Both the position numbers and the translations under genes were made by a program. Source: a virus. From it: DNA of 35,619 nt. Of this stretch, positions 22,978-30,968 are shown one piece after another (within the stretch, counting starts at the first letter, position 1; each line of letters begins with the position of its first letter). The DNA lies in the IMG/VR virus record IMGVR_UViG_3300042924_001367, positions 1-35,619 of that record; one strand, written 5' to 3'. Below the pieces are notes generated by a model. The model was not told the origin of the DNA, made no database searches, and saw nothing but the letters and a program-made list of their open reading frames with translations.

Positions 22978-23946
22978 TTAAATGCCATGCCGCGCTGTCA
23001 GCTGGTCTGCGTGCAGCGTGATCAGGTCGTTTGCCAGCACCGCACCATCGGTCGGCAGCGCCAGGCCTTCGGATGCGTAGCGTTCTGACAACCTATCGAT
23101 CAGCGTTTCAACTTCAGCAACTGCCACATGTTCAACAACCGCTTCGATTATTTCTTGGTTGCTTAGAACATTAAAACCTTTATTTATAAATAACCTTAAT
23201 ACCTTATCTATACCTATGTTCTTTGTGTTTAGCGCAACCTCTGGATGTAGCCGATGAGGTTGCCTATGTACTGAGTTATCCACAGCTTCAGGTTGCCTAT
23301 GTGACGGCTCCTCATTGGCAACCTCTGAAGGTAGCGTATTGGACGCTTTCGACTCCTTCTTCTTGGCGATCTGTTCTTTCATCTTTGCAACCGTGACGGT
23401 GTCTCCTGACTTTGGCATCTGGTACTCCTTTGCTGGTTGTGTGACGGGTTTGACTGCACCCTTGATCATGTCGTGGATGCGTTTGAGTCCTTCTGGATCT
23501 GGTGTCATGTCTTGCATCTGCTTCTCCTTCATTAGCGGTGTCCTGGTGTCCTCAATGCGGCTGGTGATGGCTACAGCTGTCTCGGCGTCGATGCTCTTGT
23601 CGAAGATCAGCCGGATGCTGTTGGCTCGTTCGCCCCTCCAGCCCTTGCTGACCACCTCGAGGTAGCCGGCCTTGACCAGCTTGCCGACTTGCCGGGTGAT
23701 GGCCTGCCTGCTGACGCCCAGGTCTTGCGCCAGGCGTGCTTGCCCGACCCAAGTGATCCCAGCTCGGTTGCAGTAGCTGGCAACCAGGAGCAGGGTGCGC
23801 ATCATGCCCTCGGTCAGGCTGCGGTCGGTGGCCGCTCGGATCGGGATGACGGCCAGCTTCCGCTGATCCGGTGCCGGCTCCTTCTCCTTGATCCGCGGCT
23901 TCTTGGGCAGCGTGAACTGGACGATGTTGTCAGGCATCGCGCTCAT
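22978..23946 (-). CDS. Replication initiator-like protein with winged helix, 322 aa
   Basis: It starts at the ATG at 23946, which overlaps the upstream stop as ATGA and has GGAAAGG before it. Residues 64-100 form a winged helix (WVGQARLAQDLGVSRQAITR, then QVGKLVKAGYLEVV). Two further blocks follow: a basic linker (residues 180-200) and a C-terminal helical domain (250-322). Residues about 207-240 are encoded by four DNA iterons, and a perfect DnaA box and an A+T-rich stretch lie alongside. This is the arrangement of lambda O, where the initiator gene contains its own origin. No helicase or primase gene is nearby, so the host helicase is presumably recruited. The function is inferred from the HTH and this origin. 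Confidence 0.72.
   Translation of the reverse strand: MSAMPDNIVQFTLPKKPRIKEKEPAPDQRKLAVIPIRAATDRSLTEGMMRTLLLVASYCNRAGITWVGQARLAQDLGVSRQAITRQVGKLVKAGYLEVVSKGWRGERANSIRLIFDKSIDAETAVAITSRIEDTRTPLMKEKQMQDMTPDPEGLKRIHDMIKGAVKPVTQPAKEYQMPKSGDTVTVAKMKEQIAKKKESKASNTLPSEVANEEPSHRQPEAVDNSVHRQPHRLHPEVALNTKNIGIDKVLRLFINKGFNVLSNQEIIEAVVEHVAVAEVETLIDRLSERYASEGLALPTDGAVLANDLITLHADQLTARHGI
23157..23324. other. Putative replication origin inside the initiator gene
   Basis: Four copies of the core AGGTTGC occur within 91 bp: 23234-23240 (inverted), 23257-23263, 23290-23296 and 23318-23324 (inverted). Three extend to AGGTTGCC(T/A)ATG. A perfect DnaA box sits between copies two and three. Next to copy one lies a strikingly A+T-rich stretch (about 23163-23231, with TTTATTTATAAATAA), a candidate unwinding element. 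A related GGTTGC is at 23157-23162. The layout iterons + DnaA box + A+T-rich region inside an initiator gene is characteristic of theta origins. Confidence 0.68.
23276..23284 (+). promoter_or_regulatory. DnaA box
   Basis: TTATCCACA, identical to the strongest E. coli DnaA box consensus, located between iterons 2 and 3. Host DnaA could bind here to help unwind the neighbouring A+T-rich stretch. Confidence 0.7.
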
Positions 23947-24632
23947 GCCACCCTTTCCAGCAGGCTGGCTTGAAGCGGTGCCTGCTGCCAATGCGGTCGG
24001 CATTGGATCGAATCCCACTGGTCAGCCATCTGCTTCACCGGCACGCCACGGTTGTGATTGCGGGCAATGTCGGTGCTGTCCACGCTGGCAAACGGATAGC
24101 CAAAGCGGGTTGTCGCCATGCCTCGCAGCATGTGCAACCAGGTCGGCACTCGGCCTGCCTTGCAGATCACGTTCATGGCCTCGGTCATCCGGCGGTGCCA
24201 GCTGTCCGATCCAACCACCGCATACTGAGCTGATGAACCGATGCAGACCCGCTGCCAGCTGTCGCAAAGCCGCTGCAGCCGGTCGATCGACTCATGCATG
24301 TGCCAAACCGGCGCTCCACGCTGACCATGCGGCCATTGGTGGAGCAGGGCGTCGTTGTCGGCCTCGTCACCCACAATCACGTCAGGGATGACCGCCCAGC
24401 TGGTCGGATAGTCCAGCCACTGCTCGCACCAAGCATAGAACCCAGCCCAGTCTGTCTCTTTGCCCGAGCGCCATGCCGAGAATGCACCGTTGTCCAGCAT
24501 GACGCCCTGGCCATGCTTGTGGCACCACTCCACGTCATCAGGCCGGTAGTGCGACACGCAAAAGAAACGACCCGCCAGCTGCTGCAACACAGTCCTGGGC
24601 GTGATCGGCGTGCCGTGGTAGTGGATCGTCAT
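23943..24632 (-). CDS. Possible TGT/DpdA-like base-exchange enzyme, 229 aa
   Basis: The start (ATG at 24632) overlaps the upstream stop as ATGA. Ordered motifs: VMLDNGAF (Asp47), AVIPDVIVGDEAD (Asp84, Asp89), PVWHMHES (108-115), RVCIGSSAQY (128-137), PTWLHMLRG (163-171) and FASVDSTDIARN (181-192, Asp185). The order of an Asp in a (D)xGxF loop, a glycine-rich strand and an 'FD..(T)..RN' loop parallels tRNA-guanine transglycosylases (their SGGFQ, GG(L/V) and FDCV.PTR..RN motifs) and the phage DNA-modifying DpdA. Family membership is inferred from this pattern, not proven. No preQ0 synthesis genes are present, so any substrate would come from the host. I recall similar unnamed proteins in proteobacterial phages. 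Confidence 0.45.
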   Translation of the reverse strand: MTIHYHGTPITPRTVLQQLAGRFFCVSHYRPDDVEWCHKHGQGVMLDNGAFSAWRSGKETDWAGFYAWCEQWLDYPTSWAVIPDVIVGDEADNDALLHQWPHGQRGAPVWHMHESIDRLQRLCDSWQRVCIGSSAQYAVVGSDSWHRRMTEAMNVICKAGRVPTWLHMLRGMATTRFGYPFASVDSTDIARNHNRGVPVKQMADQWDSIQCRPHWQQAPLQASLLERVA

Positions 24633-24877
24633 ATCTCGCCCCTGACGGTCTCCACGTCCACGCCATGATGGTGAGCTCGCAGGAACTGCCGCGTGTTCGG
24701 GAACTGATGCGCCAGGTGGTCGGCCATCTTCTCGTGGAACTCGCACTGCCAGAGCTCGCAGGCGATGACGATCTTCTCGACGTAAATCATCTGCTCCGAC
24801 TGGATCTCGAGCTCGTAGAAAACCTGCTTGTTGTTGTTCGGACAGCGCACCGCGAACTTGTGCGTGTAAATATTCAT
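24629..24877 (-). CDS. Conserved-looking small protein, 82 aa, unknown
   Basis: It begins MNIYTHKFAVRCPNNNKQVF and contains IVIACELWQCEFHEKMADHL. It looks like a mixed alpha/beta soluble protein with four cysteines and several histidines that could bind metal. The ATG at 24877 overlaps the stop of the upstream mini-membrane gene (ATGA); a TTG two codons earlier is possible but less likely. Its stop overlaps the next start. Function unknown. Confidence 0.6.
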   Translation of the reverse strand: MNIYTHKFAVRCPNNNKQVFYELEIQSEQMIYVEKIVIACELWQCEFHEKMADHLAHQFPNTRQFLRAHHHGVDVETVRGEI

Positions 24878-24990
24878 TTCCAATCTGCCTCATCTTCGCC
24901 GGCAATAAGCGCCACCCAGATGACCATGCCAGCAAGTCCGACCAGGCCGCCGATGGTCATCAGCAGCACACCAAACAGTGCGATCGCCAT
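24874..24990 (-). CDS. Mini membrane protein, 38 aa
   Basis: A 38-residue frame that fits exactly between overlapping neighbours: its ATG overlaps the upstream stop (TGATG at 24990) and its TGA overlaps the next ATG (ATGA). The product starts MAIALFGVLLMTIGGLVGLA, one long hydrophobic helix, and ends with the acidic tail GEDEADWK. This is probably a single-pass inner-membrane peptide. The precise overlaps at both ends are good evidence that it is translated. Function unknown. Confidence 0.65.
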   Translation of the reverse strand: MAIALFGVLLMTIGGLVGLAGMVIWVALIAGEDEADWK

Positions 24991-26861: not shown

Positions 26862-27542
26862 ATGGCACCGCATCAAGGCAAGTTCGTCGCGTACTACCGC
26901 GTATCGACCGACCGTCAAGGTCAGTCAGGCCTTGGCATCGAAGCACAGCAGGAAGCAGTGCGTACATTTCTCAATGGTGGCCGCTGGTCAGTGATCGGCG
27001 AGTTCACCGAGATCGAATCCGGTACCCGTAAGCGCCTAAAAGACCGCCCTATGCTCAAGGCAGCGCTCGAGCTTGCCCGCAAGCAAAAGGCCACCCTGGT
27101 GGTTGCCAAGCTCGACCGCCTGGCACGCGACGTTCAGTTCATCTCAACGCTGTTGAACGGCAAGGTGCAGTTTGTCTGCGCCGACATGCCGCAGGCCGAC
27201 CGCACGTTTCTGCAGATGGTCAGCGTGTTCTCTGAGTACGAAGCCAAGCGGATCTCTGAGCGCACCAAGGACGCGCTGGGTGCGCTGAAGCGCCAGGGCA
27301 AGAAGCTCGGCAGCCCGACGCCGGAGATCGGCAGCGCCGAGGGCGTCAAGGTCATCCAGGCAAAGGCCGACGCCTACGCAGACAAGGTCGGGCCGATCGT
27401 GCGCGACATCATCAAGAAGTCAGGCGCTGACACCCTGCGCGACATCGCCGCAGCGCTCACAGCTCGCGGCATAGAGACACCCCGCGGCAACAATGACTGG
27501 CACCCCAGCCAGGTATCGAACTTGCTCAAAAGGATTAAGTGA
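26862..27542 (+). CDS. Serine recombinase/resolvase, 226 aa
   Basis: Resolvase catalytic domain at residues about 8-145: YYRVSTDRQG with nucleophile Ser15, VVAKLDRLARDV at 80-91 with the conserved Arg pair, FSEYEAKRISERTKDAL at 123-139. A short C-terminal domain at about 190-226 (DTLRDIAAALTARGIETPRG then WHPSQVSNLLKR) is the start of a Recombinase-type DNA-binding region. The size fits a resolvase or invertase more than a large serine integrase. AGGAGG precedes the ATG. It could integrate the phage, invert a segment or resolve multimers; no attachment or inversion site was identified, so lysogeny is not proven. Confidence 0.9.
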   Translation: MAPHQGKFVAYYRVSTDRQGQSGLGIEAQQEAVRTFLNGGRWSVIGEFTEIESGTRKRLKDRPMLKAALELARKQKATLVVAKLDRLARDVQFISTLLNGKVQFVCADMPQADRTFLQMVSVFSEYEAKRISERTKDALGALKRQGKKLGSPTPEIGSAEGVKVIQAKADAYADKVGPIVRDIIKKSGADTLRDIAAALTARGIETPRGNNDWHPSQVSNLLKRIK

Positions 27543-28802: not shown

Positions 28803-29759
28803 ATGGCAGGTAAAAAAACCCCGGACACCATGCTGTCCTGCAGCCGGCTGCCGGCAATCATGGGGCTGTCTAGGTACAGCACACCGAACGACGAACTCGA
28901 GCTCTCAATCGCTGCCATCAGGGGCGAAAAGCGCGACAATAAGCAGAATGAATCGATGGCCTGGGGCGACCGGCTTGAAGCCGTCATCCTGCGCGAGGCA
29001 GCCGAGCGCCTACAGCTGGCTGACTTGGTCACAGACCACGACGAAGCCCGCTTCCACGAAAGCCTGCCGCTGTGCTGCAGCCTGGACGGCACCGGCGACG
29101 GCCACGGTCAGATCCTTACCACCGACCCTGACCGCGGGATCTATGTAATCGGCCAAGACAGCATCCGGCTGGACGGCGTCGGAATTCTTGAGGCCAAGCT
29201 GACCGCAGTGCAGCCCGAGGATGCGCCTGCCTTGTACCGTGGCCCGATACAGCTGCAAGGTCAGATGGATATTTGTTCGTCTAAATGGGGCGCACTTTGC
29301 GTCTTGTACCAAGGTACAGCACTGCGTGTCTTCCTCTTTGCGCCGCATCAACAAACGGTGCAAACGATCGCCCAAATAGCGACAGCCTTCCAGGCAAAGC
29401 TCGACACCTTTAAGGCGACCGGCGAAATCGACTATTACCCACCATTAAACAGCGACGATGCCGACCGGATGTACCCGGTCGCGACTGACACCGTTGTGCA
29501 GCTGGACATCGAGGCCGAGCTGTTGGCAGCAAAAATTGTCGACGCCAAGAACCGGGCAATCACCGCCGAGAAAGATCGTGCCGAAGCAGAGACCGAGCTT
29601 AAGACGATGCTTGGCAATGCAGGCAAAGCGATCGCCGGCAAGTACGAAATCAAATGGCCGATGCGCAGCTTTAAAGCACAGCCACAAAAAATTGTGCCGG
29701 CAAAGGAGGCGTACTCAATCCGGCAGTCAACCCTATCAGTTAAGGAGGCAACAGCATGA
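28803..29759 (+). CDS. YqaJ-type 5'-3' exonuclease, 318 aa
   Basis: Conserved steps of the YqaJ/lambda-exonuclease PD-(D/E)xK family are visible: SCSRLPAIMGLSRYSTPND at the N-terminus, AWGDRLEAVILREAAER (about 52-68), CCSLDGTGDGHG with the catalytic Asp, GILEAKLTAVQPEDAP with the E-x-K pair, and PIQLQGQMDICSSKWG. The C-terminal third is a helical region. It should resect double-strand ends for annealing by the RecT-type protein two genes on. GGAGGAG precedes the ATG; the stop overlaps the next ATG (ATGA). Confidence 0.88.
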   Translation: MAGKKTPDTMLSCSRLPAIMGLSRYSTPNDELELSIAAIRGEKRDNKQNESMAWGDRLEAVILREAAERLQLADLVTDHDEARFHESLPLCCSLDGTGDGHGQILTTDPDRGIYVIGQDSIRLDGVGILEAKLTAVQPEDAPALYRGPIQLQGQMDICSSKWGALCVLYQGTALRVFLFAPHQQTVQTIAQIATAFQAKLDTFKATGEIDYYPPLNSDDADRMYPVATDTVVQLDIEAELLAAKIVDAKNRAITAEKDRAEAETELKTMLGNAGKAIAGKYEIKWPMRSFKAQPQKIVPAKEAYSIRQSTLSVKEATA

Positions 29760-29944
29760 CACGCGAACTAACCAATCTTGAGAAGGCACACGACCGCGCT
29801 GTCGTCGCATTGCTCAACACCATCCCAAAATGCAGCGAAGAAGAAGCGCTCGAAATCGTCGAGTCGTTCACCGCGCTGGTTTTGTACACCATCGAAGCAT
29901 TCCTACCGGAGGGGGAAAAGCATGACTCAGCTGACCACAACTAA
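29756..29944 (+). CDS. Small acidic helical protein, 62 aa
   Basis: It begins MTRELTNLEKAHDRAVVALL. It is held between the exonuclease (ATGA overlap) and the annealing protein (23-bp overlap), so it is probably translated with them. It looks like a two-helix acidic protein with no recognised motif. It may be an accessory to the recombination pair. Confidence 0.55.
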   Translation: MTRELTNLEKAHDRAVVALLNTIPKCSEEEALEIVESFTALVLYTIEAFLPEGEKHDSADHN

Positions 29945-30968
29945 TCGCCAAGGCTTTGCGCCCGCCACGATGGGCGAGGCGATGGAGTTCTCCAAGATGC
30001 TGGCCGAGTCCAGCATGGTGCCGCGTGCCTACCAGGGCAAGCCGCAGGACATCATGGTCTGCGTGCAATGGGGCTATGAGCTGGGTCTCGCACCCATGCA
30101 GGCGTTGCAGAACATCGCGGTCATCAACGGCAAGCCCTCGGTCTACGGCGACGCCATGATGGCCCTGGTGCAGGCCTCGCCGGTCTGCGAGGGCATCGAC
30201 GAACACATCGAAAACGAAGGCACGCCGAACCCGGTGGCAGTCTGCATCGCCAAGCGCAAGGGTCGCAACCCGGTGATCGCCAGGTTCTCAGTGGAAGACG
30301 CCAAACGGGCAGGGCTGTGGGGCAAGCAGGGGCCGTGGCAGGCATACCCCAAGCGCATGCTCCAGATGCGAGCTCGAGGCTTTGCCCTGCGCGATGCCTT
30401 CCCTGACGTGCTTAAGGGTCTGATCACCGCCGAGGAGGCAGCCGACTACCCAGATGAAGCCAAGCCGCGGGAGAAGGATGTCACCCCAGCCAAGCCGGCC
30501 AACCCGCTGGATGCGATCGCACCGCCGCCGATCGACGTGGCACCAGTGGTCGCAGAGTTCCCGCCGTTCAATGACGACATACCGCTACCGTCAGAGCCGC
30601 CGCCGGAGTCGATCGAGATCGAGCTCATCCATGTCGATTCGCCGAACGATTCTGCAGAATCTGCAGAACCTGATGCAGAAGTTGTTGTGCTAGGCGACTG
30701 GCCGCTGATGGTGCCAGGCAAGGAGCAGCCGTTCTCCGTCCACGCCAGCCAGCAGGAATGGCAGCAGGCCTATGAGGATCTAGCCGACAAGACCGCCAAG
30801 GCCGGCAAGCGACCAGCTCGGGAGCGAATGACCATCCTGAAGGAGCTGCGCGAGGTCAATGAGCTGCAGCTGAAGCGGATCAACAGCATTGACCGGATGC
30901 GCCACACAGCGTCGTACAGCGGCAGGATCAACGCGCTGGGTGCCGCAGTGCCTGCCAATGAGAAGTAG
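29922..30968 (+). CDS. RecT-type single-strand annealing protein, 348 aa
   Basis: I start it at the ATG at 29922 (MTQLTTTNRQGFAPATMGEA), preceded by GGAGGGGG; the longer frame upstream is the shadow of the previous gene. The N-terminal 190 residues carry the RecT pattern: ALSKMLAESSMVPRAYQGKP-like opening (here EFSKMLAESSMVPRAYQG), QWGYELGLAPMQALQNIAVI, NGKPSVYGDAMMALVQASP and a MRARGFALRDAFPDVLKGL helix. Residues about 190-275 are a proline- and acid-rich linker, then a basic helical tail. It anneals complementary strands exposed by the exonuclease. Confidence 0.85.
   Translation: MTQLTTTNRQGFAPATMGEAMEFSKMLAESSMVPRAYQGKPQDIMVCVQWGYELGLAPMQALQNIAVINGKPSVYGDAMMALVQASPVCEGIDEHIENEGTPNPVAVCIAKRKGRNPVIARFSVEDAKRAGLWGKQGPWQAYPKRMLQMRARGFALRDAFPDVLKGLITAEEAADYPDEAKPREKDVTPAKPANPLDAIAPPPIDVAPVVAEFPPFNDDIPLPSEPPPESIEIELIHVDSPNDSAESAEPDAEVVVLGDWPLMVPGKEQPFSVHASQQEWQQAYEDLADKTAKAGKRPARERMTILKELREVNELQLKRINSIDRMRHTASYSGRINALGAAVPANEK

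Follow-up and report, generated by a model that had tools for sequence, protein, structure and literature searches.

The replication initiator gene of the phage studied here most probably holds its own origin, a reading to which we give a probability of about 0.88. The winged helix of the protein would bind iterons located inside the gene, an A+T-rich tract would open and the host machinery would be loaded there. Comparison of relatives demonstrates constraint at the DNA level and co-variation of helix and repeats; actual binding, pairing at inverted half-sites, unwinding of the A+T-rich tract, help from DnaA, loading of host DnaB and origin activity are what we infer. It is also likely that residues 80 and 85 of the initiator form a recognition code for this own-gene origin, with about ten switches in which the helix and all the repeats would have changed together. 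At least three specificity groups would result (probably five with the Lys80 forms described below), perhaps in response to co-infecting phages or to satellites that would exploit or attack an origin held in common.

Layout of the initiator gene and its repeats

The window, i.e. the whole stretch of viral DNA that was analysed (35,619 nucleotides; IMG/VR record IMGVR_UViG_3300042924_001367), encodes a protein of 322 residues that matches three 'replication initiation O-like' profiles, PHROG 391, 678 and 345, with E-values of 4.6e-8, 1e-6 and 7.8e-6, respectively. By profile, it belongs to the O-like replication initiators. The winged helix that a preliminary description had ascribed to the protein encoded around the repeats was recovered, as HTH_36 scores above the Pfam cut-off and the AlphaFold model has helices and a wing at residues 46-113. 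The model is good for the winged-helix part and poor for the protein as a whole (mean pLDDT 66.8, pTM 0.38), and residues 199-243 are predicted to form a disordered linker. PDB sequence searches with this protein and with lambda O returned nothing useful.

The coordinates of the four AGGTTGC units, the DnaA box, the A+T-rich tract and the gene were all re-derived and found to be correct as first described (Table 1). A fifth unit and the decayed partner half-sites beside iterons A and D had been overlooked. In relatives such as L044, the partner half-sites are intact GCAACC motifs, and the pair forms an 18-bp inverted repeat, e.g. GCAACCTCCAGAGGTTGC in L044. Because these partners are intact in relatives, the two units of the window can be regarded as remnants of the 18-bp inverted repeat. 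The order 'inverted, direct, direct, inverted' originally proposed is right as read, but it represents the decayed form of a two-palindrome plan. The relevant unit is the half-site, used singly and as inverted pairs. The plan consists of two inverted pairs that enclose single units and the DnaA box, followed by the A+T-rich tract and one unit beyond it.

Table 1. Positions of the initiator gene and of the putative origin elements in the window
Feature	Position	Strand	Remarks
O-like replication initiator gene	22978..23946	-	322 aa; PHROG 391/678/345, HTH_36; homologs start at the same codon
Recognition helix of the winged helix, codons 80-93	23668..23709	-	AlphaFold helix 80-93, block pLDDT about 90
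Codon 80	23707-23709	-	In recognition helix
Codon 85	23692-23694	-	In recognition helix
Decayed partner half-site of iteron A (GGTAGC)	23330..23335	+	Intact in L024, L044
Iteron A (AGGTTGC)	23318..23324	-	Core conserved, switches along with the helix
Iteron B (AGGTTGC, inside AGGTTGCCTATGT)	23290..23296	+	
DnaA box, perfect, TTATCCACA	23276..23284	+	Sole perfect match in the window
Iteron C (AGGTTGC, inside AGGTTGCCTATGT)	23257..23263	+	
Decayed partner half-site of iteron D (ATGTAGC)	23245..23251	+	
Iteron D (AGGTTGC)	23234..23240	-	
A+T-rich tract, probable unwinding element	23163..23231		
Fifth iteron (GGTTGC)	23157..23162	+	Far side of the A+T-rich tract

In the mechanism that we propose, the winged helix of the O-like initiator would bind the iterons in the part of the gene that encodes the disordered linker. 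Bound initiators, probably as pairs on the inverted half-sites, would bend the region and open the A+T-rich tract, which iterons flank on either side. Host DnaA at the box located among the iterons would assist in many lineages. As no phage loader or polymerase was found, the host DnaB helicase and polymerase would be loaded at the origin through the C-terminal part of the initiator, through DnaA or through both. The earlier statement that the phage has no polymerase or helicase gene was borne out by PHROGs and Pfam searches of the window, which recognised neither, nor any loader; this includes a P-like loader or DnaB-like helicase gene adjacent to the initiator gene, an arrangement that lambda and P22 have. 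Most of the longer related contigs measure 32.6-35.5 kb, which suggests that the window is close to the whole genome and that little is missing. The GC skew of the window has no clear turn at the putative origin; gene direction confounds the skew.

Constraint on the DNA of the linker region

Scans of IMG/VR yielded 77 non-redundant full-length genes of relatives, and 38 further distinct genes were fetched afterwards, giving 115 in all. The family is one of freshwater phages, and the repeats, the A+T-rich tract and their flanks are conserved across it at the DNA level. Among phage isolates, the sole match was to Methylophilales phage MEP301 (38.8% identity over 38% of the protein); its gp55 (L082), annotated as hypothetical, aligns in the N-terminal part only. 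This gene, of 201 aa, contains no such iterons and no DnaA box, and the origin of MEP301 may therefore lie elsewhere than in gp55. A scan of species genomes gave one weak match, in a Chloroflexi MAG (L131), which is too short for repeats.

Over the whole window AGGTTGC is not enriched (nine copies against 5.9 expected), but the four copies within 91 bp are. Synonymous codons were shuffled within the gene in 500 trials, leaving protein and codon usage unchanged. In 2 of the 500 permutations of the window's gene, some 7-mer occurred four times within 160 bp, and for L024, L034, L044, L048, L050, L054, L058, L071, L073 and L079 the observed 7-mer copy number was never reached in 500. The density of 7-base repeats was not significant against codon permutation in L041, L042 and L066. 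Among 18 close relatives, synonymous divergence amounts to 0.087 in codons 206-264, about one third of the 0.258 found outside. Of 10,000 codon sets drawn at random, not one was as low, and non-overlapping contiguous windows of codons all gave at least 0.212. The repeat units fall on both strands and in several frames, and a change of core throughout the array between lineages alters the encoded peptide. Given the permutation results, the low synonymous divergence, the distribution over strands and frames and the disorder of the linker, we conclude from these comparisons that the DNA rather than the peptide of the linker region is conserved. That the repeats are instead a by-product of protein coding, arising from a repeated peptide or from biased codons, might be considered, as the units sit in a low-complexity linker and several of them share frame and strand. 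Such an origin is scarcely credible. Codon permutation fails to reproduce the repeat density, and synonymous change three times lower in the array region already refutes coding alone. The use of both strands and several frames, the switching of the peptide along with the array core and the predicted disorder of the linker also speak against it.

The DnaA box is perfect in 42 of the 77 genes, as against a mean of 2.4 (maximum 6) after codon permutation. In the complete set, 49 of 115 genes have a perfect box and 71 a relaxed form (18.6 by permutation), and 44 have none even when relaxed. In L050, L051 and L056 the box is reversed, the same DNA word thus encoding another peptide. Judged from its conservation, the box is a real and accessory element. 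A perfect copy is present in the window, but the box is not a constant of the family. As for whether relatives might keep the protein and lose both the repeats and the box, a comparison of iteron cores in related phages showed that the repeats are retained with the protein in nearly every case, their core tracking the recognition helix, whereas the box is absent from the 44 genes mentioned. An A+T-rich tract follows the iterons in nearly all genes. In the 110 classified genes, the best 60-bp A+T maximum has a median of 0.775 and lies at a median of 58 bp beyond the last iteron. In the clade of the window, L026-L031 and L034-L036 are devoid of the DnaA box and their iteron set is rearranged, with the helix code retained.

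Helix residues 80 and 85 and the types of repeats

In nearly all of the 77 genes, the commonest hexamer of the linker region found de novo is GGTTGC, GGTTGT or GTGTCC, or overlaps one of these. By core counts, 31 genes are of the GGTTGC type, 24 of the GGTTGT type and 21 of the GTGTCC type, and L041 is mixed (GGTAGC/TGTTGC); the register in which the GTGTCC type aligns with the GGTTGC type has an uncertainty of one base. The units within one gene share the same type, and mostly so does the unit beyond the A+T-rich tract. An own-type core is found there in 29/31 GGTTGC, 21/24 GGTTGT and 5/21 GTGTCC genes, the far-side unit of the latter often being GTTTCC or GGTTGC instead.

Exactly two of the alignment columns 1-199, namely 80 and 85, separate the repeat types without error, and both residues belong to the front part of the recognition helix. 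All 24 GGTTGT genes have Gln at position 80, whereas the 52 others, without exception, have Arg or, in one case, His (L071, of the GGTTGC type). At position 85, all 21 GTGTCC genes have Asn, and the 55 others have Lys or Arg throughout. The combination of Arg80 with Lys/Arg85 occurs in 30 of the 31 GGTTGC genes. Specificity would be set mainly by these two helix residues: Arg80 with Lys/Arg85 would read GGTTGC, Gln80 with Lys/Arg85 would read GGTTGT, and Arg80 with Asn85 would read GTGTCC. Arg facing G and Gln facing A, here the partner of the last core base in the opposite strand, is a textbook preference.

On a tree of the family built with the helix and the linker left out, the repeat types need 10 changes, and the well-supported branches alone force at least six changes for GGTTGT and at least six for GTGTCC. 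Pairs on separate branches agree in 6/6 cases for each residue (two-sided p 0.031 each). When the rule was applied to the 38 later genes, 32 were predictable and the core was right in 32/32, some of them being 52-66% identical to any earlier gene; these 32 genes are not 32 independent lineages and include no GTGTCC type. The other six genes, for which the rule gave no prediction, have Lys80 and different repeats, with GTTGTC/TGGTTG in L174 and L177 and GTTGTC/TGTTGT in L223-L226. The recognition helices of these Lys80 proteins read VTKQAISKQ and VSKQQVARA, and they probably represent two more specificity types.

Close pairs of different types differ in two separated patches, the helix and the iterons. 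Between L050 and L042, nucleotide identity is 84-95% before the helix, 70% in the helix (44% at the amino acid level), 86-92% over residues 94-185, 35% in the iterons and 82-85% after them. The corresponding values for L094 and L057 are 54% in the helix, 82-96% between helix and iterons, 25% in the iterons and 72-96% after them. For comparison, L050 and L056, which are of the same type, are 89% identical in the helix and 99% in the iterons. One exchanged block would fail to explain these near pairs; there was either an exchange of two patches or selection on both. A different kind of exchange is seen in L032, which hardly differs from the window's gene as far as the iterons and then falls to 44-58% nucleotide identity, with 14-41% amino acid identity after residue 241. 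In view of this strong divergence, the A+T-rich tract and the C-terminal part seem to have been exchanged as a module.

It could be argued that helix and repeats co-vary as one exchanged block among a few ancestral types, residues 80 and 85 making no contact with the bases that vary. The two elements share a gene at a distance of about 400 bp, modules do get exchanged, as L032 indicates, and recombination could shift them together, although the intervening DNA does not follow. We consider this unlikely. The approximately 330 bp between helix and iterons stay at 82-96% identity in one near pair and mostly at 86-92% in the other, with both ends differing. Moreover, no other column of the alignment separates the types without error, at least six changes are forced for each of two types, and the replacement of Arg by Gln together with that of G by A on the read strand fits textbook base contacts. 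We therefore favour a code carried by residues 80 and 85, and the initiator very probably binds these repeats.

What co-variation reveals is recognition alone, not its consequence. The repeats might thus serve as an operator for autoregulation or as a partition or centromere site to which the protein binds, with replication starting elsewhere. The nearest PDB folds, all with modest scores, include MarR/CodY-type regulators, in line with such a role; among the same matches, however, are the initiator domain 4pt7 and the related N-terminal domain 4pql. The sites are at a great distance from the start of the gene, 600-800 bp into it, and a promoter scan, itself uninformative, gave no promoter-like match near them. 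The O-like profile, the A+T-rich tract bracketed by sites and the DnaA box are features of an origin, which makes an operator or a partition site quite improbable and an in-gene origin the preferred interpretation.

Known systems and the rest of the phage genome

The preliminary description had considered that lambda O has the same plan. This holds for the gene, the repeats and the A+T-rich tract; it does not for the sequence, which has no detectable similarity to lambda O, for the P-like loader or for the placement of the DnaA box. We know of no perfect DnaA box among the lambda iterons. In lambda, the origin is inside the O gene and the initiator binds its own gene (PMC7466680, PMC5043065), with four annotated iterons at 39034-39118 of NC_001416, and DnaA-box-like sites have been reported downstream of the pO promoter (PMC3985674). 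In both systems, mid-gene iterons adjoin an A+T-rich tract. However, lambda has four 18-bp units in a row, whereas the present family has single and inverted half-sites, a unit beyond the A+T-rich tract and, in many lineages, a DnaA box among the units, and no P gene was found in the window. As the match of the family profile to lambda O was not significant, homology is not claimed.

The O-like gene 18 proteins of P22 and L have internal repeats of about 20 bp (four copies) and 11 bp (six copies), respectively, read as different specificities (PMC8022706). That comparison involves three distantly related proteins, in contrast with the parallel switches within one family, the two residues and the near pairs described here. 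In the PLE satellite of Vibrio cholerae, the RepA_N domain of RepA co-varies with the iterons, cognate pairs are required for replication and specificity was swapped more than once (PMC8263062). In contrast to our family, whose origin would be in the gene and whose change is centred on one helix, PLE has its origin between genes and swaps entire domains. Iteron plasmids are not known to have their iterons inside the rep gene. In RK2, P1, F and pSC101, iterons, DnaA and an A+T-rich region act together (PMC5043065, PMC4081077), and the Rep proteins have two winged helices (PMC4081077). Here, by contrast, the iterons are within the gene, the model shows one winged helix, and Pfam gave no match to the Rep_3 profile or to two winged-helix domains of the iteron-plasmid Rep type.

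O-type in-gene origins, differing repeats among O-like proteins (those of lambda, P22 and L) and repeated exchange of initiator and iterons, as in PLE, are known already. The freely accessible literature searched describes neither this family nor a code at the level of residues for O-like initiators. As far as that search shows, the novelty resides in the family itself, in its composite layout of half-site pairs, a DnaA box and units on either side of the A+T-rich tract, and in a code of two residues that predicts the sequence of the origin. Because all repeats have to change along with the protein, it is a puzzle how an initiator and its origin can acquire a new specificity and avoid a non-functional intermediate. 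The pairs L050/L042 and L094/L057, which differ mainly in one helix and the repeats, make this question directly testable. As two residues predict the repeats in unseen genes, origins of uncultured phages could be located simply from the protein alone. The code also suggests replication-compatibility groups among related phages.

The other genes of the window include those for terminase, head, connector, tail, RecE/RecT-like, lysis and recombinase proteins. Directly upstream of the initiator gene, 23943-24935 (- strand) matches PHROG 887, queuine tRNA-ribosyltransferase (E-value 8e-56); its product is possibly a DpdA-like enzyme of 7-deazaguanine DNA modification, and DNA similar to this gene is present in phages Pam5 and Mae-JY30. 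A serine recombinase or DNA invertase (PHROG 125, Resolvase domain) is encoded at 26862-27542 (+ strand), and the phage has several tail-fibre genes. Imperfect direct repeats of 55 nt (631-685 and 1294-1348, 82%) could be duplicated tail-fibre segments. Finally, a RecE-like exonuclease with a YqaJ domain and a RecT-like annealing protein are encoded next to each other at 28803-30968 (+ strand).
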